Shown: one piece after another, positions 884-8,967 of the stretch
Layout: each line of letters begins with the position of its first letter
Position numbering within the stretch: position 1 is the first letter of the stretch
Assembly: GCA_937883885.1 (NCBI GenBank)
Contig: CAKZXL010000802.1
Span: 1 to 10,495 of the forward strand
From: an uncultured Aquincola sp.
GTDB lineage: Bacteria; Pseudomonadota; Gammaproteobacteria; Burkholderiales; Burkholderiaceae
DNA: 10,495 nt
Direction of reading: 5' to 3'
The notes under the pieces: model-generated
What the model saw: only the letters and a program-made list of their open reading frames with translations
The model's database searches: none
Told to the model about the DNA's origin: nothing
Program-made: the position numbers and the translations under genes

Positions 884-899
884 TGTACTTGACGGTACA
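884..899. promoter_or_regulatory. Operator O1 of the dehydrogenase gene (TGTAC-N6-GTACA dyad)
   Basis: TGTAC TTGACG GTACA is an inverted repeat with 5-bp arms and a 6-bp spacer. The same arms and spacing recur at 921-936 and 2415-2430, next to the other genes of this module. The spacer itself is a good -35 hexamer (TTGACG), so bound protein would block RNA polymerase directly. The repressor is inferred to be the TetR protein encoded at 1752-2405. Confidence 0.75.
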
Positions 900-917
900 T
901 ATTAGGAGGCTGAAAAT
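889..917 (+). promoter_or_regulatory. Predicted sigma70-type promoter of the dehydrogenase gene
   Basis: The -35 TTGACG lies at 889-894 and the -10-like GAAAAT (4 of 6 matches to TATAAT) at 912-917, with 17 bp between them. Transcription would begin near 924, inside the second dyad, giving a leader of about 25 nt. The -10 is weak. The call rests mainly on the -35 and on the matching layout at the efflux promoter. Confidence 0.55.
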
Positions 918-920
918 AAC

Positions 921-936
921 TGTACCTACTGGTACA
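921..936. promoter_or_regulatory. Operator O2 of the dehydrogenase gene
   Basis: TGTAC CTACTG GTACA has arms extendable to 7 bp (CTGTACC / GGTACAG, 920-937), the best symmetry of the set. Its centre is 37 bp from the centre of O1. It covers the predicted transcription start and ends 12 nt before the ATG at 949. Confidence 0.75.
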
Positions 937-948
937 GCAAAGAGCCTC

Positions 949-1755
949 ATGACTTCGTCCCAAGTTGTTCTCATCACCGGCGTCTCCTCCGGCATCGGCC
1001 GCGCTGCGGCGCAGCAGTTCGCGCAGCAGGGCTGTCTCGTGTTCGGCACCGTGCGCGACCTCGGCAAGGCAGAGCCAATGCCCCAGGTGGAGCTGGTGGA
1101 GATGGACGTTCGGGACGACTCGTCGGTGCGTCGCGCGGTGGGGGCTGTCCTGCAGCGCGCCGGCCGCATTGACGTGCTCGTCAACAACGCCGGGGGCACC
1201 TTGCTGGGCGCCGTGGAAGAAACCTCGGTGGCTGAAGCCAAGCACCTGTTCGACACCAACCTGTTCGGCATGCTGCGCGTGACGCAGGCCGTGCTGCAGG
1301 TCATGCGAAAGCAGGCGTCCGGGCGCATCGTCAACGTCAGTTCCGTGCTCGGCTTTCTGCCGGCCCCTTACATGGGCCTGTACTCGGCGTCCAAGCATGC
1401 CGTCGAAGGCTTGTCAGAGACGCTGGACCACGAGGTGCGCAGGTTCGGCATCCGGGTGGTGCTGGTGCAGCCTTCCTACACCAAGACCAACCTGGACCTG
1501 AATGCGCCGGTGGTGGCGTCGAAGATTGCCGCCTATGACGGCGATCGGGAACAGGTCTCACGGGCCATCACCCGGAACGTGCAGAAGGCGCCCGCGCCGC
1601 AGGCCGTGGCTGCCACCATCGTGGACGCCGCATTGGGCGCGTGGCAGATGCGCAGGACGCCCAAGGGAGAAGCGTCGCTGCTGAAGACCCTGCGGCGCTT
1701 CATGCCGGTCGGCCCGGTGGATGCCAGCCTGCGCAAAACCTTCGGCCTGGGCTAG
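949..1755 (+). CDS. Short-chain dehydrogenase/reductase (classical SDR)
   Basis: This 268-residue protein is of usual length for a classical SDR, an NAD(P)H-dependent cytoplasmic oxidoreductase. Visible motifs are the dinucleotide-binding TGVSSGIG (residues 10-17), NNAG (79-82) and the catalytic tetrad N104, S132, Y145 and K149 (YSASK). The TVRD segment at 34-37, with Arg after the second strand, leans towards NADPH. The overall pattern resembles the 17-beta-hydroxysteroid-dehydrogenase-like SDRs, many of which are annotated only as oxidoreductase. The ATG at 949 is chosen because the frame extension back to 889 would run through the operators and promoter. The Shine-Dalgarno is weak (AAGAG at 940-944). 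The gene is flanked upstream by two dyads and converges on the tetR gene, sharing CTAG at 1752-1755. Its substrate is unknown. Linkage to a repressor and an efflux pump suggests reduction of a toxic carbonyl compound, which is inference. Confidence 0.92.
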
Positions 1756-2405
1756 CAGCGGGCCTGGTAGCCCGCCAGGAACACCCGTACCGCCTCCTGC
1801 AGCATCGCGTGGTCCTGGGCTGGCGTGGGCATGGGCAGCTTCAGCAGGCCGCGGATGTGGCCATCTCCAAGGAACATGGCCAGGAACAGGTCGGCCGCCA
1901 GCCGGGGGTTGGGCACGGTCAGTGCACGGGCCAGGCTGGCACGCCCCAGGTAGTCGGCCAGGTCCGAGATGAGCCGGTCAGCACCTTGGCGGTAGAACGC
2001 CCGGCAGGCCTCGTGCTGCGTCGCCGCCGCGCCGTACAGCGCCCGGAACTGGGCCAAGGCGTGGTCCTCGCGGGCCAGCGCCAGGAAGTTCTGTCCGATG
2101 GTCAAGAGCGCCTGCTCCGGCTGTCGCGGGTCCAGGGCGTTGATGTCGGTGCGGCCCGGCATCACCTGCTCGCTCCTGTCGCGGACGACCGCCTCGAACA
2201 AGCCATTTTTGGACTTGAAGTGGCTGTAGACCGTCATTTTCGAGACGCCGGCATCTGCCGCGATCGCGTCGAGGCTTGCCTTGTCCAACCCATGGGTGTG
2301 GAACTGCGCTCGCGCGGCATCCATGATGCGCTGGCAGCGCGCCGGGTCTCGCGGCCGCCCTCTGCGTGCTTGGTCAGGCGGTTGTTCCGTGGCTCGCTTC
2401 CTCAT
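1752..2405 (-). CDS. TetR-family repressor, AefR-like (predicted repressor of the module)
   Basis: This 217-residue one-component regulator has a basic arm RRGRPRD (residues 14-20) and a TetR DNA-binding domain at about 23-72, with the helix-turn-helix around [20 protein letters not shown] (44-63) and the typical KNGLFEAV after it. The C-terminal half, with [21 protein letters not shown] and later [13 protein letters not shown], resembles the AefR-type effector domain that often regulates RND pumps. The ATG at 2405 lies only 9 bp from the dyad at 2415-2430, so the gene is probably autoregulated. Upstream of this ATG there is no clear Shine-Dalgarno. A TACACT at 2413-2418 (minus strand) could act as a -10 and would give a nearly leaderless transcript, but no good -35 is visible. 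It is divergent from the efflux operon and convergent with the SDR gene, and is the best candidate to bind all the dyads. The inducer is unknown. Confidence 0.9.
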
Positions 2406-2414
2406 TCTAAATAG

Positions 2415-2430
2415 TGTACTTGACAGTACA
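2415..2430. promoter_or_regulatory. Operator O3 between tetR and the efflux operon
   Basis: TGTAC TTGACA GTACA has the same arms and spacing as O1 and O2. Compared with O1, 15 of 16 bases are identical, although this lies 1.5 kb away in otherwise unrelated DNA. The spacer is a perfect -35 hexamer (TTGACA) for the efflux operon. The site is also 9 bp upstream of the tetR start codon, so one bound repressor could control both directions. Confidence 0.78.
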
Positions 2431-2478: not shown

Positions 2479-3963
2479 ATGAAACATCACAGGCCAGCCT
2501 GGCCTTCCGTGGCCCTGGGGTGGGGCCGGCCGATGGGGGTGATCGGCCTGGCAGTCTTGACGGCGGCATGTGCCACGCCGCCGGCGCCACCGGTGCAGCC
2601 GTCGGTGCCGCTGGCCGCGTCGTATCTGCAGGCGTCCACGGCCGGCGCGGCTGCCGCGGCGCCCGACGCGGCCTGGTGGGCGGGCTATGGCGACACCCGG
2701 CTGTCCGGCTTCATCGACGAGGCGCTCGCGGCCAACCAGGACGTGGGCATCGCAGTGCAGCGGGTGCGTCAAGCGCAGGCGGGCCTGCAGTCGCAGGACG
2801 CGCGGCTGTGGCCGAGCGTGGGTCTGCAGCTCTCGGCCTCGCAGACCGACAGCGGCCTGCCGGCGGCGGTCAAGCAAGGATCGCCCGACACGCGTGCGCT
2901 GCGCGCCGGGCTGGAAGTGGCCTGGGAAATCGATGTGGCCGGCGGCGTGCGGGCTGCGCGTGATGCGGCGCAGGCCGACGCGTGGGCGGCCCGGCTGGGC
3001 GTGGACGGTGCGCGGCTGCTGGTGGCCAGCGAGGTGGGCCGGCAGTATTTCCTGCTGCGGGCGGCCCAGGAGCAGCTGCGCATCGTGCAGTCGCTGGCGG
3101 CCACGCAGCGCGAAACGGCCGACCGGGTGGCCAGCCGCGAGCGCGAAGGCCAGGCCAGTGCCTTCGACCTCGACCGTGCGCGGGCCGAGGCCGACAGCCT
3201 GGATGCCCAGGTGCCGCTGCTGCGCCTGCAGGCCGGCACGGCGCAAAGCCGATTGGCAGTGCTGCTGGGTCGTCAGCCTTCGGCACCGGTGATGGACGCG
3301 GCCGAGCCCTTCGCCTGGCCTTCGCCGCGCAGCATCGCGCCCGGGCAGCCTGGCGAGCTGCTCAAGCGGCGGCCCGACCTCGCCGCCGCCGAGGCGCGGG
3401 TGAGCGCCGAAGGCCTGCGCACCGAAGAAGCGCGGGCGCAGTGGTGGCCCAAGCTGTTCCTCAACGCCCTCGTCGGGCGCCAGGACCTGCGGCTCAATGC
3501 CCTCGACCTGGCCCCGGTGCGCTTTTCCAACGTGGCGCTGGCCTTCGCCATGCCGCTGTTCAACGCCGGCCGCATCGACGCCGGCATCCAGGCGCAGTCC
3601 GCCCGCACGCAGGAGGCCCTGCTGGCCTGGCAGAAGGCCACCCTGGTGGCGGTGCAGGAAGTGGAAGACAGCCTGTTGATGCAGCAGCAGCAGGCGTCGC
3701 GTTCGCAGGCATTGGCGCAGACGGTGGACCACCGGCAGCGCTCGCTGCAGCGCGCGCAGTCGCTGCAGCGCGAAGGCCAGATCGACCTGCTGGTGCTGCT
3801 GGACGTGCAGCGCTCGGTGCTGGCCAGCGAACTGGCCTTGTCCGACAGCCGGCTGCAGCAGGCCCTGGCCGACGTGCAGCTCTACAAGGCGCTGGGGGGC
3901 GGACTGCCATCCCTCGCCTCGGAGGGCGCCTTTCCATCCCTTGCCGCAAGGACTTCGAAGTGA
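2479..3963 (+). CDS. RND efflux outer-membrane factor (OprM/NodT family lipoprotein)
   Basis: This 494-residue protein is the outer-membrane channel of a tripartite pump, which as a trimer would carry substrate from the periplasm to the outside. The N-terminus has a positively charged start, a hydrophobic stretch and a lipobox-like LTAAC with the lipid-bearing Cys at 31. The rest shows the two long OEP repeats: a first with IDEALAANQDVGIAVQRVRQAQAG, and a second starting near LLKRRPDLAAAEARV, with AMPLFNAGRIDAGI in the late part and LYKALGGG near the end. Length and order are normal for OprM-like proteins. The ATG at 2479 gives a complete lipoprotein signal; ATG 2533 would remove the charged N-region. 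The Shine-Dalgarno is weak (AAAAGCAG). It is first in the operon, and its TGA overlaps the GTG start of the adaptor gene by 4 nt. The order outer-membrane factor, adaptor, permease differs from the common mexAB-oprM order. Confidence 0.93.
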   Translation: MKHHRPAWPSVALGWGRPMGVIGLAVLTAACATPPAPPVQPSVPLAASYLQASTAGAAAAAPDAAWWAGYGDTRLSGFIDEALAANQDVGIAVQRVRQAQAGLQSQDARLWPSVGLQLSASQTDSGLPAAVKQGSPDTRALRAGLEVAWEIDVAGGVRAARDAAQADAWAARLGVDGARLLVASEVGRQYFLLRAAQEQLRIVQSLAATQRETADRVASREREGQASAFDLDRARAEADSLDAQVPLLRLQAGTAQSRLAVLLGRQPSAPVMDAAEPFAWPSPRSIAPGQPGELLKRRPDLAAAEARVSAEGLRTEEARAQWWPKLFLNALVGRQDLRLNALDLAPVRFSNVALAFAMPLFNAGRIDAGIQAQSARTQEALLAWQKATLVAVQEVEDSLLMQQQQASRSQALAQTVDHRQRSLQRAQSLQREGQIDLLVLLDVQRSVLASELALSDSRLQQALADVQLYKALGGGLPSLASEGAFPSLAARTSK

Positions 3964-5111
3964 GCAACGTATTCATCGTGGCTGCCCGTGTGGGCATCAC
4001 CGCCGCCAGCTTGTGGCTGGCCGCCTGCAGCCAGCCGGCGGCGCCACCGGCCCTCGTTCGGCCCGTTTTCGTGACCACCGTCCACCCCACCCAGACGGCG
4101 CAGTCGCGCAGCTTCACGTCGACCGTGCGGGCGCGGGTGGAGGGCGACCTGGGCTTTCGCACCGGTGGCAAGGTGATCGAGCGTCTGGTGGAGGTGGGTG
4201 AGGCGGTGAAGGCCGGCCAGGTGCTGGCCCGGCTCGACCCCATCGACTATCAGCTGGCCGTGAATGCGGCGGCCGACCAGGTGCAGGCGGCCCAGGTGGA
4301 TGCCGCGCAGGCCGCCTCGGACGAAGCCCGCTTTCGTCGCCTGCTGGCCGATGGCTCGGTGGGCGCGGCCGACCATGAGCGCCAGAAGGCCCGTGCCGAC
4401 GCGGCCGCCGCCCGGCTCGACCAGGCCCGCCGCCAGCTGGCGCTGGCCCGCAACCGTGAAGGCTATGCGGCGCTGGTGGCGCCATATGCCGGCGTGGTCA
4501 CCGCGATCCGCTTCGAGCGGGGGCAGGTGGTGGCCGAGGGCCAGCCCGTGATGGCGCTGGCCCGCGACGGCGAACGTGAGGTGGTGGTCGATCTGCCGGA
4601 GGACTGGGTGGGCCGCGCGCGCGGGCTCACGGCCACGGCCAGCCCCTGGGCCGACGCCCGCACCGCGCTGCCGCTGGTGCTGCGCGAACTGGCGCCCCAG
4701 GCCAGCGCCCAGGGCCGCACCTTCCGCGCCCGCTTTGCCGCCACGGCCGCTTCCCGCGCGCAGGTGTCCGCTTTGCCGCTGGGCAGCACGGTGCAGCTGA
4801 CGCTGTCGGCCCCGGCGGCCGGCCCCGCCACGGTGTCGCTGCCGGTCAGCGCGCTGCTCAAGGGCAGTGGCCAGCCCGGTGTGTGGATAGTGAACGCGCC
4901 GGGCACGGGCCTGGTGTTCACGCCGGTGGGCGTCGTCCAGGCCGACGAGGCGACGGTGCGCCTGACCGGTGTGCCCGCCGGGGCGCGGGTGGTCACCGTG
5001 GGTGCGCAGACCCTGGATGCCGGCATGGCCGTGCGGGCCATCGAGCGCAGCCCGGAGGCCACCACCAGCGCCACCAGCGCCGCCGCGACCACGGCCGCGA
5101 AGGGCAGCTGA
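3960..5111 (+). CDS. RND efflux periplasmic adaptor (membrane fusion lipoprotein)
   Basis: This 383-residue protein bridges permease and outer-membrane channel. The GTG at 3960 is chosen because it overlaps the preceding stop (GTGA) and is followed directly by a signal sequence with lipobox LAAC (Cys23). Domains in order are: the first half of a lipoyl/barrel-sandwich (GFRTGGKVIERLVEVGEAVKAG, with conserved LDP at 92-94), an Ala/Gln/Arg-rich alpha-helical hairpin at about 95-165, the second lipoyl half (APYAGVVTAIRFERGQVV), and a beta-barrel and membrane-proximal region with LPVSALL and VWIVN. The tail is a low-complexity Thr/Ser/Ala run of about 16 residues. Its stop shares one base with the permease start (TGATG), so the operon is translationally coupled. 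The substrate cannot be read from the sequence. Confidence 0.93.
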   Translation: MSNVFIVAARVGITAASLWLAACSQPAAPPALVRPVFVTTVHPTQTAQSRSFTSTVRARVEGDLGFRTGGKVIERLVEVGEAVKAGQVLARLDPIDYQLAVNAAADQVQAAQVDAAQAASDEARFRRLLADGSVGAADHERQKARADAAAARLDQARRQLALARNREGYAALVAPYAGVVTAIRFERGQVVAEGQPVMALARDGEREVVVDLPEDWVGRARGLTATASPWADARTALPLVLRELAPQASAQGRTFRARFAATAASRAQVSALPLGSTVQLTLSAPAAGPATVSLPVSALLKGSGQPGVWIVNAPGTGLVFTPVGVVQADEATVRLTGVPAGARVVTVGAQTLDAGMAVRAIERSPEATTSATSAAATTAAKGS

Positions 5112-8100
5112 TGAAACGCTTCAACCTCTCCGAGTGGGCGGTGACCCACCAGCCGATGGTGCTGTTCCTGATCATCGCGACGATGGTGATCGGCGTGTTC
5201 TCGTTCAGCCGCCTGGGTCGTCTGGAAGACCCGACCTTCGAGGTGCCGCAGATGACCGCCATCGTGGCCTGGCCCGGTGCCACGGCCGAAGAAGTGCAGG
5301 ACCAGGTGCTCAACCGCATCGAGCGCAAGTTGCAGGAGCTGGACCAGTTCGACTACGTGCGCAGCTTCGCCCGCCAGGGCTACGGCGGCATCACGCTGTG
5401 GATGAAGGGCGGCAGCAGCAAGGAGGAACTCGACCGGGCCTGGTACCAGGTGCGCAAGAAGATCGGCGACGTGCGCCAGGAGTTTCCGGAAGGGGTGCGG
5501 GGTCCTTTCTTCAACGACGAGTACAGTGACCGCTACAGCGTGCTGTATGCATTGAGCGCGCCCGAGCTGTCGATGGCTGAACTGCTCACGGTCACCGAGG
5601 CCGTCAAGCGCCGCTTCCAGAGCGTGCCTGGCGCCGGCAAGGTGGACGTGCTGGGCAAGCAGGCCGAGCGCGTGTACGTGGAGGTGTCCACCCGCCGGCT
5701 GGCGGCCCTGGGCATACCGCCATCGGCCGTGTTCGATGCGCTGGCGCGCCAGAACCTGGTGGCGCCTGCGGGCTCTTCCGACACCCCGCACGACCGGGTG
5801 CAGGTGCGTGTGGACGGCCGCTTGTCCGGCGTCAAGGACGTGGAGAACGTGACGCTGGAGGTGGCAGGGCAGGTGCTGCGGCTGGCCGATGTGGCCACGG
5901 TGCGCAGCGGCTATGAAGACCCGCCCAGCATGACCATCCGCCACAACGGCGTGCCGGTGCTGGCCATCGGCGTCAAGCTGCAGCACAACAGCAACGTGAT
6001 GGCCTTCGGCCAGGCCATGCAGGCACGCCTGGACGAGGTTCGCCGCGAACTGCCGGTGGGCGTCGAGATCCAGCAGTACGCCGACCAGCCGCGTGTGGTC
6101 GGCGAGTCGATCTGGGAGTTCGAGCGGGCTTTCCTGGAAGCGCTGGCCATCGTGCTGGCGGTGTCTTTCCTGTTCCTGGGCTGGCGCACCGGCATCGTGG
6201 TGGCGGCTTCGGTGCCCCTGGTGCTGGGCCTGGTGTCGGCCGTGATGTATGCGGCGGGCTGGAACCTCGATCGCATCTCGCTGGGGGCGCTGATCATCGC
6301 CCTGGGCCTGCTGGTGGACGACGCCATCATCGCCGTCGAGATGATGGTGGTGAAGCTGGAGGAGGGCTGGGACCGCGTGCGTGCCGCCACCTACGCCTAC
6401 ACCTCCACCGCATTCCCGATGCTCACCGGCACCCTGGTCACCGCCGCCGGCTTCATGCCGGTGGGCTTTGCCAAGTCGATCTCCGGGCAGTACGCCGGTG
6501 GCATCTTCTGGGTGGTGGGCGTGTCGCTCATCCTCTCGTGGCTGGTGGCGGTGGTGTTCACGCCTTACCTGGGCATCAAGCTGCTGCCCAGGACGCTGGG
6601 CCATGGCGGGCACCACGACGTGTACGACCGGCCGCTGTACCACCGCTTGCGCCGCTTGATCGACTGGGCGGTGCGCCAGCGCTTCATCGTGCTGGGCTTG
6701 ACGGTGCTGCTGCTGGTGGCCGCGGGTGCCGGCATGACGAAGGTGCAGCAGCAGTTCTTTCCCACCGCAGCCCGGCCGGAGCTGCTGGCCGAGCTGCGGA
6801 TGCGTGAAGGTGCGTCGTTGGCCGCCACCGAGCAGCAGGTCAAGCGCCTGGAAGCCATCCTGGCGCAAGACCCCGACATCGAGTACTTCACGGCTTACAC
6901 CGGCGCGGGCACGCCGATCTTCTACCTGTCCATCCAGGCGGAGCTGCCCAACCCGGGCTTTGCCCAGGTGGTCATCAAGACCGCGGGCATCGAGCAGCGC
7001 GAGCGGGTGCGCGCCCGGCTGATGGCACTGTTCGACGAAGGCGAAGTGCTGCCCGACGTGCGGGCGCGGGTGCTGCGCCTGGAGTTCGGTCCGCCCGTCG
7101 GCTTCCCGGTGCAGTTCCGCGTCATCGGACCCGACCCGGCGGTCGTGCGCGAGATCGCCTACCGGGTGCGCGATGCGGTGCGGCAAAGCCCGCTGGTGCG
7201 CGACACCCAGCTCGACTGGAATGAGCAGGTGCGCTCCATGCGCGTGGTGGTGGACCAGGACAAGGCCCGCCAGCTGGGCCTGACCACGGCGGACCTCCAG
7301 GGCCTGGTGCAGACCACGCTGGACGGCTCGCCGGTGACGCAGATCCGCCGGGGCGAAGAGCTGGTGGACGTGGTGGTGCGCGCCACGCCCGAGGAGCGTC
7401 GCGGCATCGGCCAGCTCGGCGACCTGCAGGTGTTCACCCGCAGCGGCGTCACGGTGCCGCTGTCGCAGGTCGCCCGCATCGAGCCGACGTTCGAAGAGCC
7501 GGTGCTGTGGCGCCGCAACCGCGACATGGCGCTCACCGTGCGCAGCGACCTGGCCGATGGCGTGCAAGGCCCTTACGCCACGACGCAGATCCGGCCTTCG
7601 CTGCAGCCCATCATCGAGAACCTGCCGGCGGGCTACCGCATCGAAGAAGGTGGCGCGATCGAAGAAAGCGACAAGGCCAACGTGGCGCTGTTCGCGGTGT
7701 TCCCGGCCATGTTCGCGGTGACGCTGGCGCTGCTGATGATCCAGCTGCAGAGCTTTTCGCGCATGTTCATGGTGTTCCTCACCAGCCCGCTGGCCATCAT
7801 CGGCGTGGTGCCTGCGTTGCTGGCCTTCCGGGCGCCGTTTGGCTTCGTCGCGCTGCTGGGGGTGATTGCGCTGGGCGGCATGATCATGCGCAATGCCATC
7901 ATCCTGGTCGACCAGATCGACCAGGACATCGGCCGCGGTGCAGCGCCCTGGTCAGCCATCGTCGAAGCGACGGTCCGGCGGTCCCGCCCGGTGGTGCTCA
8001 CCGCAGCGGCTGCGGTGCTGGCCATGATCCCGCTGACGCGCAGCGTGTTCTGGGGACCGATGGCGATCTCCATCATGGGCGGCCTGGTCGTGGCGACGGC

Positions 8101-8203
8101 ACTGACGCTGGTCTTCGTGCCGGCCTTGTACGCCGCCTGGTTCAAGGTGCGCCGCGACGCGACGGCCGCAGCTGCGCTGCCGTCGGCAACGGCGCCGGCC
8201 TGA
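5111..8203 (+). CDS. RND efflux permease (HAE family, AcrB-like)
   Basis: This 1030-residue inner-membrane proton/drug antiporter is of full AcrB-like length, working as a trimer. It has TM1 at about 16-34, a first periplasmic loop, a TM2-TM6 block from about 340, TM7 at about 523-545, a second periplasmic loop and a TM8-TM12 block from about 857. The proton-relay acids of TM4 are present in GLLVDDAIIAVE (D403, D404). In TM10 the segment is GGMIMRNAIILVDQI, so the residue matching AcrB K940 is Arg (R927). FEVPQMTAIVAWPGATAEEV near the N-terminus is typical of the family. The fold is conserved and no break is seen. The sequence looks closer to the TriC-like group of proteobacterial pumps than to AcrB itself, which I judge from motif memory only. 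Probable substrates are hydrophobic or amphiphilic compounds. Confidence 0.94.
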   Translation: MKRFNLSEWAVTHQPMVLFLIIATMVIGVFSFSRLGRLEDPTFEVPQMTAIVAWPGATAEEVQDQVLNRIERKLQELDQFDYVRSFARQGYGGITLWMKGGSSKEELDRAWYQVRKKIGDVRQEFPEGVRGPFFNDEYSDRYSVLYALSAPELSMAELLTVTEAVKRRFQSVPGAGKVDVLGKQAERVYVEVSTRRLAALGIPPSAVFDALARQNLVAPAGSSDTPHDRVQVRVDGRLSGVKDVENVTLEVAGQVLRLADVATVRSGYEDPPSMTIRHNGVPVLAIGVKLQHNSNVMAFGQAMQARLDEVRRELPVGVEIQQYADQPRVVGESIWEFERAFLEALAIVLAVSFLFLGWRTGIVVAASVPLVLGLVSAVMYAAGWNLDRISLGALIIALGLLVDDAIIAVEMMVVKLEEGWDRVRAATYAYTSTAFPMLTGTLVTAAGFMPVGFAKSISGQYAGGIFWVVGVSLILSWLVAVVFTPYLGIKLLPRTLGHGGHHDVYDRPLYHRLRRLIDWAVRQRFIVLGLTVLLLVAAGAGMTKVQQQFFPTAARPELLAELRMREGASLAATEQQVKRLEAILAQDPDIEYFTAYTGAGTPIFYLSIQAELPNPGFAQVVIKTAGIEQRERVRARLMALFDEGEVLPDVRARVLRLEFGPPVGFPVQFRVIGPDPAVVREIAYRVRDAVRQSPLVRDTQLDWNEQVRSMRVVVDQDKARQLGLTTADLQGLVQTTLDGSPVTQIRRGEELVDVVVRATPEERRGIGQLGDLQVFTRSGVTVPLSQVARIEPTFEEPVLWRRNRDMALTVRSDLADGVQGPYATTQIRPSLQPIIENLPAGYRIEEGGAIEESDKANVALFAVFPAMFAVTLALLMIQLQSFSRMFMVFLTSPLAIIGVVPALLAFRAPFGFVALLGVIALGGMIMRNAIILVDQIDQDIGRGAAPWSAIVEATVRRSRPVVLTAAAAVLAMIPLTRSVFWGPMAISIMGGLVVATALTLVFVPALYAAWFKVRRDATAAAALPSATAPA

Positions 8204-8212
8204 CGCACGACC

Positions 8213-8749
8213 ATGCCGACGAATCACCGACAGCGCCCGGTGCGCGGGCGTGGGCACATCGGGCCGGAGAAGATGCTGCTGGCCGCGTTCGACGTGTTCG
8301 TCGACAGGGGCATCGCCGCCGCCGCGATGGAGGAGATCGCCCAGCGTGCGGGGGTGGGCAAAGGCACGCTCTACCTCTACTTCGACAGCAAGGCCGACAT
8401 GTTCAACCGGCTCGTCTTCACGGAAGGCGCGCAGCATCCGTCGCTGGTGGCCTTCTGGCTTGAAGAGGTGATGGCCCCCAGCCTGGCGGCGCTGCGCCGG
8501 GTTCGGCAGGCCGCCCGCCCCGACCATCGCCTGGCGGACCTGGACGACGAAACCATCCACCACGCGCTGGTGTGGCCACTGATCGGCGGCGCGCTGCATG
8601 CGCAGTTGCTCAGGTCCGCACCGCCGCGGTCGATGCGTCGCGAGACCTCGCCACGCAGCCATGTACGTCTGGTGCAGGCGCTGCTGCAACCGGTCCGCCG
8701 AGCTTTGCGGGTCGGCCGCCTGCCTCGACCGGCTCGGTTGCCCGGCTAG
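8213..8749 (+). CDS. TetR-family regulator, short, possibly altered at its C-terminus
   Basis: This is a 178-residue protein with a clear TetR DNA-binding domain at about residues 18-66: KMLLAAFDVFVDRGI, then a helix-turn-helix MEEIAQRAGVGKGTLYLYFD (39-58) and KADMFNRLV. The effector part continues with LVAFWLEEV and a plausible late helix, HVRLVQALLQPVRRAL. The last 10-15 residues (Arg/Pro/Leu-rich) lie over DNA that reads as a LysR remnant in another frame, so the natural end may have been replaced. Relatives are usually 190-220 residues. The gene starts 9 nt after the permease stop without a visible Shine-Dalgarno, so expression with the efflux operon is likely. This is the second TetR in the cluster. 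Its DNA-binding domain differs from that of the first, so a different operator is expected, and none could be assigned. Confidence 0.8.
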   Translation: MPTNHRQRPVRGRGHIGPEKMLLAAFDVFVDRGIAAAAMEEIAQRAGVGKGTLYLYFDSKADMFNRLVFTEGAQHPSLVAFWLEEVMAPSLAALRRVRQAARPDHRLADLDDETIHHALVWPLIGGALHAQLLRSAPPRSMRRETSPRSHVRLVQALLQPVRRALRVGRLPRPARLPG

Positions 8750-8967
8750 CCCGCAGGACCTGCAGGCGCATCGGCTGGTGATGCTGCGTGCGCCCGATGA
8801 CCGCGGGCCTCGCTTTGTTGCCCGAGCTGGCGGTCACCGCGCTGCCCCGCCGGCGCTACCTGCCGCTGCGCACCCGCGCCTTCCTCGAGTGCTTCATCCG
8901 CCATGTGCAGGCGGTGGCGGCAGCGGCCGGCCGGCCGCCGCGGGTTCAGGGCGAGGTGCAGGTGTAG
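8700..8967 (+). pseudogene. Remnant of a LysR-type regulator (effector-domain C-terminus only)
   Basis: Three short pieces in two frames match the order of conserved blocks in the effector domain of LysR-type regulators. From 8721, ACLDRLGCPASPQDLQAHRLVML corresponds to the block usually reading like SPAYLxRHGxPxxPxDLxxHRCL. From 8806 (shifted frame), GLALLPELAV corresponds to the late GLGIALLPxxLV block. From 8848, RRRYLPLRTRAFLECFIRH corresponds to the C-terminal block before the stop, here TAG at 8965-8967. In an intact protein about 55-65 residues separate the first two blocks and about 25 the last two. Here they almost touch, so at least two internal deletions and a frameshift are implied. 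No LysR DNA-binding domain is present; the 5' side runs into the TetR gene. The end overlaps the tannase gene on the other strand by 22 nt. The match is by motif recognition only. Confidence 0.62.
8923..8938. repeat. 16-bp perfect GC palindrome, possible terminator of the tannase gene
   Basis: GCGGCCGGCCGGCCGC reads the same on both strands. It lies 7 nt downstream of the tannase stop codon (minus strand) and inside the LysR remnant. It could fold into a GC stem, but no T-run follows on either strand, so an intrinsic-terminator role is weakly supported. In DNA of this GC content such a palindrome can occur by chance. Confidence 0.3.

Follow-up and report, generated by a model that had tools for sequence, protein, structure and literature searches.

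Sequence comparison suggests that an efflux pump, a reductase gene and a TetR-type repressor gene are very probably all kept silent by that repressor, acting through matched pairs of sites placed around the promoters. The window, which is the whole analysed stretch of 10,495 nucleotides from an uncultured Aquincola sp., carries the OEP/MFP/RND pump operon at 2479-8203 and, on the opposite strand, a tetR gene lying tail-to-tail with a gene for an SDR-family oxidoreductase, with an overlap of a few bases. The genes concerned are as follows.

949-1755, + strand: SDR-family oxidoreductase, predicted target (NCBIfam PRK06179 subfamily, 418 bits, cutoff 310)
1752-2405, - strand: tetR, predicted repressor and its own target (TetR_N plus TetR_C_7, the AefR-like C-terminal domain)
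2479-3963, + strand: outer-membrane efflux protein (NodT/OEP), gene 1 of the pump operon (family search)
3960-5111, + strand: RND periplasmic adaptor (MFP) with a GTG start (family search)
5111-8203, + strand: RND efflux permease (family search)
8213-8749, + strand: second TetR_N protein (TetR2), at the end of the pump operon (family search)

The TetR protein encoded at 1752-2405 possesses an N-terminal helix-turn-helix (PF00440, TetR_N; 64.9 bits, cutoff 24) and a separate C-terminal ligand/dimer domain (PF14246, TetR_C_7; 72.9 bits, cutoff 22), while none of the 17 NCBIfam models that matched it did so above its cutoff. The label "AefR-like" attached to it earlier holds for the family of the C-terminal domain, the feature shared with AefR of Pseudomonas syringae, but is in doubt for the full-length protein, as the solved structure annotated AefR (3cdl) aligns with the window TetR only over residues 24-88, the helix-turn-helix part (E 3.2e-7). 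The gap between the start of tetR (2405) and that of the OEP gene (2479) is 73 bp, which is under the 200-bp rule for divergent targets; according to an excerpt of PMC3511530, a divergent neighbour at a distance below 200 bp is usually repressed by its TetR regulator. At 178 aa, the second TetR-type protein, TetR2, is short, and no C-terminal domain was recognised in it. Between TetR2 and a tannase gene, the reading frames at 8690-8960 resemble, by eye, the C-terminus of a LysR-type protein that is broken and divided between two frames. An FmdB zinc-ribbon protein of the RPWMISH family is encoded at 509-856, directly downstream of a formamidase gene and just before the SDR cassette.

Four predicted operators, forming two cassettes with the predicted promoters, were located in the window.

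884-899, no strand: O1, predicted operator TGTACTTGACGGTACA, found by pattern scan; its spacer contains the -35 box of the SDR promoter
889-917, + strand: predicted SDR promoter TTGACG-N17-GAAAAT (GAAAAT at 912-917), a consensus match only
921-936, no strand: O2, predicted operator TGTACCTACTGGTACA, covering the predicted SDR transcript start, 37 bp from O1
2415-2430, no strand: O3, predicted operator TGTACTTGACAGTACA; its spacer contains the -35 box TTGACA of the pump promoter
2420-2447, + strand: predicted pump promoter TTGACA-N16-TAGAGT (TAGAGT at 2442-2447), a consensus match whose -35 box is kept in orthologs
2431-2436, - strand: predicted tetR -10 region abutting O3 (4/6 matches in the window)
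2451-2466, no strand: O4, predicted operator TGGACTTGTGAGTCCA, over the predicted pump transcript start, 36 bp from O3
880-940, + strand: cassette A (O1, promoter and O2), towards the SDR gene; model R1, which was built from sequences including this one, gives 39.8 bits
2411-2470, + strand: cassette B (O3, promoter and O4), common to the pump operon (+) and tetR (-); R1, for which it was likewise one of the building sequences, gives 43.1 bits

The original prediction placed three exact TGTAC-N6-GTACA dyads at 884-899, 921-936 and 2415-2430 and nowhere else, and a renewed scan of the whole window recovered these three and no further copy; the stated difference of a single base between O1 and O3 was also confirmed (15/16 bases identical). 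The three sites therefore stood but their number did not, since a fourth site, O4, had been overlooked, which brings the total to four, two in each promoter cassette. O4 departs from the exact pattern by two mismatches and fits TGKAC/GTMCA, the arm form of the orthologs. The start-to-start spacing is 37 bp for O1/O2 and 36 bp for O3/O4. Chance origin of the repeats was ruled out by counts in first-order Markov copies of the window: three exact dyads were observed versus none in 300 copies, and the relaxed pattern TGKAC-N6-GTMCA was observed four times versus 0.017 expected.

The dyads are in register with the predicted promoters, with TTGACG (889-894) inside the O1 spacer and TTGACA (2420-2425) inside the O3 spacer. 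A consensus scan of 780-2560 returned only these two promoter-like sites, versus 0.2 expected in shuffles; the SDR boxes are weak, weaker than those of the pump promoter. Because of the positions of the two predicted promoters, the predicted starts fall in O2 and O4, so that in each pair, as inferred from consensus, one operator would cover the -35 box and the other the start. On the reverse strand, the tetR -10 region beside the first dyad scores a mean of 5.0/6 (range 4-6) in the 26 cassettes counted as divergent, which take in the second cassette of L065, one that does not adjoin tetR. It is perfect (6/6) in six other cassettes versus only 4/6 in the window's own tetR cassette, and only 3-4/6 in five one-directional cassettes facing an SDR or hydrolase gene. 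By sequence register, two operators would thus lie over overlapping divergent promoters, with the -35 box in dyad 1, the predicted start in dyad 2, and the reverse -10 region, weak in the window, beside dyad 1.

This arrangement is conserved in orthologous loci. A scan of genome contigs gave 41 loci, the 13 closest of which (L001-L013) encode a TetR 60-70% identical to that of the window and all have the same pump. A dyad pair with 36-37 bp spacing is present in the tetR-pump gap of all 13; other pairs in these loci occur only at the second cassettes of L005, L009, L010, and L012, before an SDR or hydrolase gene, with one extra overlapping register among the dyad pairs of L009. The second dyad of L007 has two arm mismatches, and in L008 one dyad has two mismatches and the other one. 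Within 311 bp before tetR, L001-L013 together hold 24 single sites that have no more than one mismatch, compared with 0.36 expected from the remainder of the loci. The 18 remoter loci (L017-L037 without L019, L028, and L033; TetR identity 29-37%) hold 33 such sites versus 0.52 expected, with at least one in every locus. L019 and L028, set apart as contig ends, likewise have two dyads, while L033 and L038-L041 align to only part of TetR and lay outside the dyad assessment. Protein searches in relatives added five pump-bearing orthologs (L056-L059 and L126), all with the pair; in L126, the OEP (73% identical) is the only pump gene inside the fetched stretch. The comparison of gaps beside orthologous tetR genes, which had been proposed as a check, thus found genes and dyad pair kept together in 18/18 pump-bearing loci examined (13 + 4 + 1), loci fetched twice being counted once (L055=L005, L062=L008, L064=L003, L052=L007). 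No dyad pair was found at L014-L016 (TetR identity 48-49%, same recognition helix, no adjacent pump), where the upstream letters hold, by eye, one degenerate site only. At L075 (62% identity over residues 33-215, no adjacent pump), there were no dyads upstream, no cassette in the genome and no flavin oxidoreductase match. These four loci speak against the assignment, as do the degenerate dyads of L007 and L008 and the weak boxes of the SDR promoter. A second stretch resembling the C-terminal half of TetR (63%) lies at 10238-10555 of L013, about 4 kb from the first.

The consensus of 31 aligned cassettes reads TTAnTGTACTTGACAGTCCA, about 20 bp, and then TTACTGTACTnnnnAGTCCAnTAA. The inner AC and GT are invariant in all 31, and the two dyads are spaced 36 bp apart from start to start in 28 cassettes and 37 bp in three. 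On this alignment, the operator is better given as TTAnTGKACTnnnnAGTMCAnTAA, with a length of about 24 bp because the outer TTA/TAA bases are also conserved. The dyad form of the operator proposed earlier was upheld, but not its exact 5-bp arms, which are degenerate at arm position 3.

Genome-wide, the single dyad is a poor detector. A scan of 399 genomes of the order with TGKACTTGACNGTMCA gave six matches in five genomes, of which two lie at tetR (L048 in G001 and L052 in G394, the latter the same DNA as L007) and four (L047, L049-L051) fall within long reading frames and look like chance. The exact pattern occurred at five places in three of seven whole genomes, with one at tetR (L044). The paired cassette model, which uses sequence only, was therefore applied instead. 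Of 26 genomes that encode a TetR relative, it detected a cassette in 22, with best E values of 1e-8 or lower, most of these cassettes having served to build the model, and gave no match in G007 (L014), G572 (L075), G040 (L060), and G085 (L063). Cassettes not used in model building (L068, L072, L073, L110, L126, L128, and the first L086 cassette) match at 31-53 bits.

Among 249 genomes related to G002, the TetR of L110 as query (E <= 1e-50) found nine TetR genes in eight genomes, and the cassette model (E <= 0.01), run with stricter filters that lose weak matches, found nine cassettes in eight genomes, two shorter reverse-strand matches to the same cassettes (G002, G630) being left out of the nine. 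The two sets coincide in seven genomes with eight gene-cassette pairs, and all nine cassettes adjoin a tetR of this family. G085 encodes a 46%-identical TetR with a different helix and has no cassette; the cassette of G489 lies beside a 40%-identical TetR that had been detected earlier with the window's protein as query.

The recognition helix VSKMT[VIL]YS[HN]F is present in 51 of 56 aligned TetR genes, and all of those 51 except L014-L016 and L075 have at least one GTMCA-type dyad upstream. The other five genes have the helices VSKVTIYRYF (L060, L063), VSKMTIYSYF (L061, with a cassette), VAKMTVYSNF (L073, with cassettes), and VSKTTVYNNF (L110); upstream of L060 and L063, the letters are, by eye, of TATAC and TTTAC type. 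We take residue 39 of TetR to align with the M of VSKMT. In an excerpt of PMC6570905, the TetR P39K mutant is described as not recognising the operators. L110 is the second repressor copy in G002, 74% identical to the first, and lies beside a flavin oxidoreductase gene (89%). Its helix VSKTTVYNNF is accompanied by the dyads TGAACTCCTGAGTTCA and TGAACTGTCAAGTTCA, which are of the TGAAC-N6-GTTCA type. The tree places L110 within a group of 12 TetRs (L065-L075 and L110; support 100/100, exact place 91/50), whose other members have either a ten-residue helix not spelled out here or VAKMTVYSNF and, L075 excepted, arms of the TGKAC/GTMCA type. Since helix and operator arms have both changed in L110, the pair points to TetR as the binder; the co-change in this one paralog is suggestive and not proof.

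The genes behind the cassette vary among relatives. The SDR gene has its own dyad pair in the window, L005, and L010, and in L008 it has become the leading gene of the pump operon and follows the tetR cassette. In L128, the tetR cassette is followed by an SDR gene of this subfamily, with 51% identity across 237 aligned columns, and there is no pump match within that 3.6-kb locus. An alpha/beta hydrolase gene lies behind the second cassette in L009 and L012; in L009, the SDR gene (6640-7116) is broken, with an internal stop and a missing stretch, and is preceded by the hydrolase gene with its own cassette, and in L012 there was no SDR match covering over a quarter of the protein. All ten loci from relatives of the Variovorax genome G003 (L065-L074) have, close to the tetR cassette, a gene for a flavin (thioredoxin-reductase-like) oxidoreductase, with 88-100% likeness; apart from a remnant in L065, these 3.6-kb loci gave no pump match. 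At this locus (L065/L086), two tandem cassettes and a fragment covering residues 981-1025 of the RND permease, from its C-terminus, precede the flavin oxidoreductase gene (L086 4007-4544), which is likely a deletion scar of pump loss. In the actinobacterial L036, the gene for a 32%-identical TetR is flanked by two exact dyads with a spacing of 28 bp, and the divergent gene encodes an alpha/beta hydrolase. An SDR search in G002 and three other genomes gave a best G002 match of 39% identity, so G002 has no close SDR ortholog. Other SDR genes were observed near pump or tetR at L085 2142-2933 (47% identical to the window's) and L058 550-1323 (41%), and in the corresponding genomes (G453, G485) the model detects the tetR cassette only. 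Detoxification is the apparent function of the pump and of each cargo enzyme, and the relatives appear to keep the switch but to exchange the controlled gene: some have a flavin oxidoreductase in its place, some an alpha/beta hydrolase, and some only the reductase.

Several other readings of the dyads were weighed. It is unlikely that TetR controls the tetR/pump pair only and that the SDR pair is a relic or belongs to another regulator, a reading partly compatible with the preferred one. The weaker boxes of the SDR promoter are in line with it, as is the SDR gene being broken or not found in L009 and L012, but O1 departs from O3 at a single base in 16, L005 and L010 retain a pair that faces the SDR gene, and the SDR gene follows the tetR cassette in L008 and L128. 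That the operators belong instead to TetR2 is very unlikely, even though TetR2 is a TetR_N protein of the same operon and, of nine orthologs inspected beyond the pump, five have a TetR-like gene at that place (L077, L080, L081, L083, L085; E <= 1e-3). The cassette is kept in the other four (L078, L079, L082, L084), where no TetR-like gene was found within the 2.4-3.1 kb that follow the pump, and the pumpless L065-L074 keep both the cassette and a gene of the family of the window tetR; the co-changed paralog L110 is a homolog of this tetR. On these grounds (cassette kept where a TetR2-like gene was not found after the pump, or where the 3.6-kb locus gave no pump), TetR2 was rejected as the binder and is, by sequence, not a constant partner of the cassette. 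TetR2 itself was found in one of 20 genomes at E <= 1e-15, a count that is weak alone given the five of nine at E <= 1e-3. The TetR-like genes after the pump in relatives are 29-33% identical to TetR2; where the loci L001 and L011 end, identity reaches 53-60%, but across stretches shorter than 60 residues.

A role of the dyads in RNA, as terminators or 5' leader hairpins, is extremely unlikely. O2 was flagged as terminator-like on the minus strand, and O2 and O4 would sit at the 5' ends of the transcripts, but no minus-strand gene among the reading frames of the window ends at O2, and the first dyad of each pair lies upstream of the predicted start. Across the 31 cassettes, the arms pair fully in only seven first and ten second dyads, and arm position 3 is paired in 11 and 14, respectively. 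The arms seldom pair completely mainly because position 3 varies independently on both sides, which fits protein half-sites and not RNA stems, and the RNA role was ruled out on this incomplete pairing. There is likewise only the slightest probability that the dyads serve some other regulator, such as a sigma-54 activator whose site resembles them. Azotobacter VnfA was suggested, in an excerpt of PMC7294313, to bind GTAC-N6-GTAC, which is also the core of the dyads. The dyads, however, lie on a sigma-70-type -35 box and the predicted start and not far upstream of a -24/-12 promoter, and a VnfA-like site was ruled out on this position; moreover, every cassette that the model detected in the 249 genomes adjoins a tetR of this family, and the co-change in L110 points to TetR.

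The preferred explanation is therefore control by the TetR of 1752-2405, and the operator and regulon originally predicted for this protein gain support from the computed sites, the dyad pairs of the orthologs, the promoter register, the co-occurrence with tetR, and the one co-change of helix and operator. The repressor would bind, as a dimer, to four operators of the form TTAnTGKACTnnnnAGTMCAnTAA, arranged as two pairs, one per promoter, with the first operator on the -35 box and the second on the start, 36-37 bp apart. When bound, it would block RNA polymerase at two places, the promoter of the SDR gene (O1/O2) and the divergent promoter between tetR and the pump (O3/O4), and the reductase, the OEP-MFP-RND pump, and tetR would thereby be off. 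Release may be brought about by a small molecule, probably a lipophilic xenobiotic that would be exported by the pump and modified by the reductase. We infer the binding, the repression, and the ligand of TetR, and the direction of regulation is deduced from the position of the sites and from knowledge of the TetR family; the explanation as a whole is given high confidence.

In Tn10, TetR with tetO1/tetO2 combines divergent repressor and efflux genes, two tandem operators, overlapping promoters, and autoregulation. As read here from sequence register, the window would resemble this system in all these respects, but differs in repressor subfamily and operator sequence, in having an RND pump instead of the MFS pump of Tn10, and in a second cassette 1.5 kb away that would drive an enzyme gene. 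A paper by Yun (2015) reportedly deals with the AefR site. According to excerpts of the respective papers, SmeT of smeDEF (PMC3128119) and PmeR of mexAB-oprM (PMC12421961) are TetR repressors of their own gene and an adjacent RND pump, with SmeT binding a pseudopalindromic region and PmeR two overlapping palindromes. As predicted here, the repressor would likewise act in a region common to its own gene and the RND pump. Compared with the sites described in those excerpts, the window dyads differ in being separate, 36 bp apart, and accompanied by a second pair at an enzyme promoter. Among the listed titles and abstract openings of open-licence PMC papers, no account of this operator was recognised, although the motif was met in work on nitrogenase regulators; an excerpt of PMC12285254 gives no operator sequence. 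Autoregulation of a TetR through tandem operators at a divergent promoter is an ordinary kind of system; novelty is clearest in the exchange of cargo genes and in a single natural shift of specificity.

We lean slightly towards reading the cassette of about 60 bp as a mobile regulatory unit. In the repressor subfamily with the helix VSKMT[VIL]YS[HN]F, one operator code of GTMCA half-sites would span Burkholderiales to Acetobacteraceae and an actinobacterium, its cargo (pump, reductase, hydrolase, or flavin oxidoreductase) would be swapped, and duplicated repressors would be insulated by changes of both helix and operator, as exemplified by the TGAAC pair of G002 and possibly by the VSKVTIYRYF type (L060, L063). 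The analysis provides a concrete predicted operator and regulon for a Burkholderiales TetR group for which no description was found among the open-licence PMC papers listed, and in which detoxifying enzymes would be tied to an efflux pump under one signal. With two repressors whose helices and operators appear to have diverged together, G002 would hold a natural repressor pair that offers a ready test of the evolution of TetR specificity without engineered changes.
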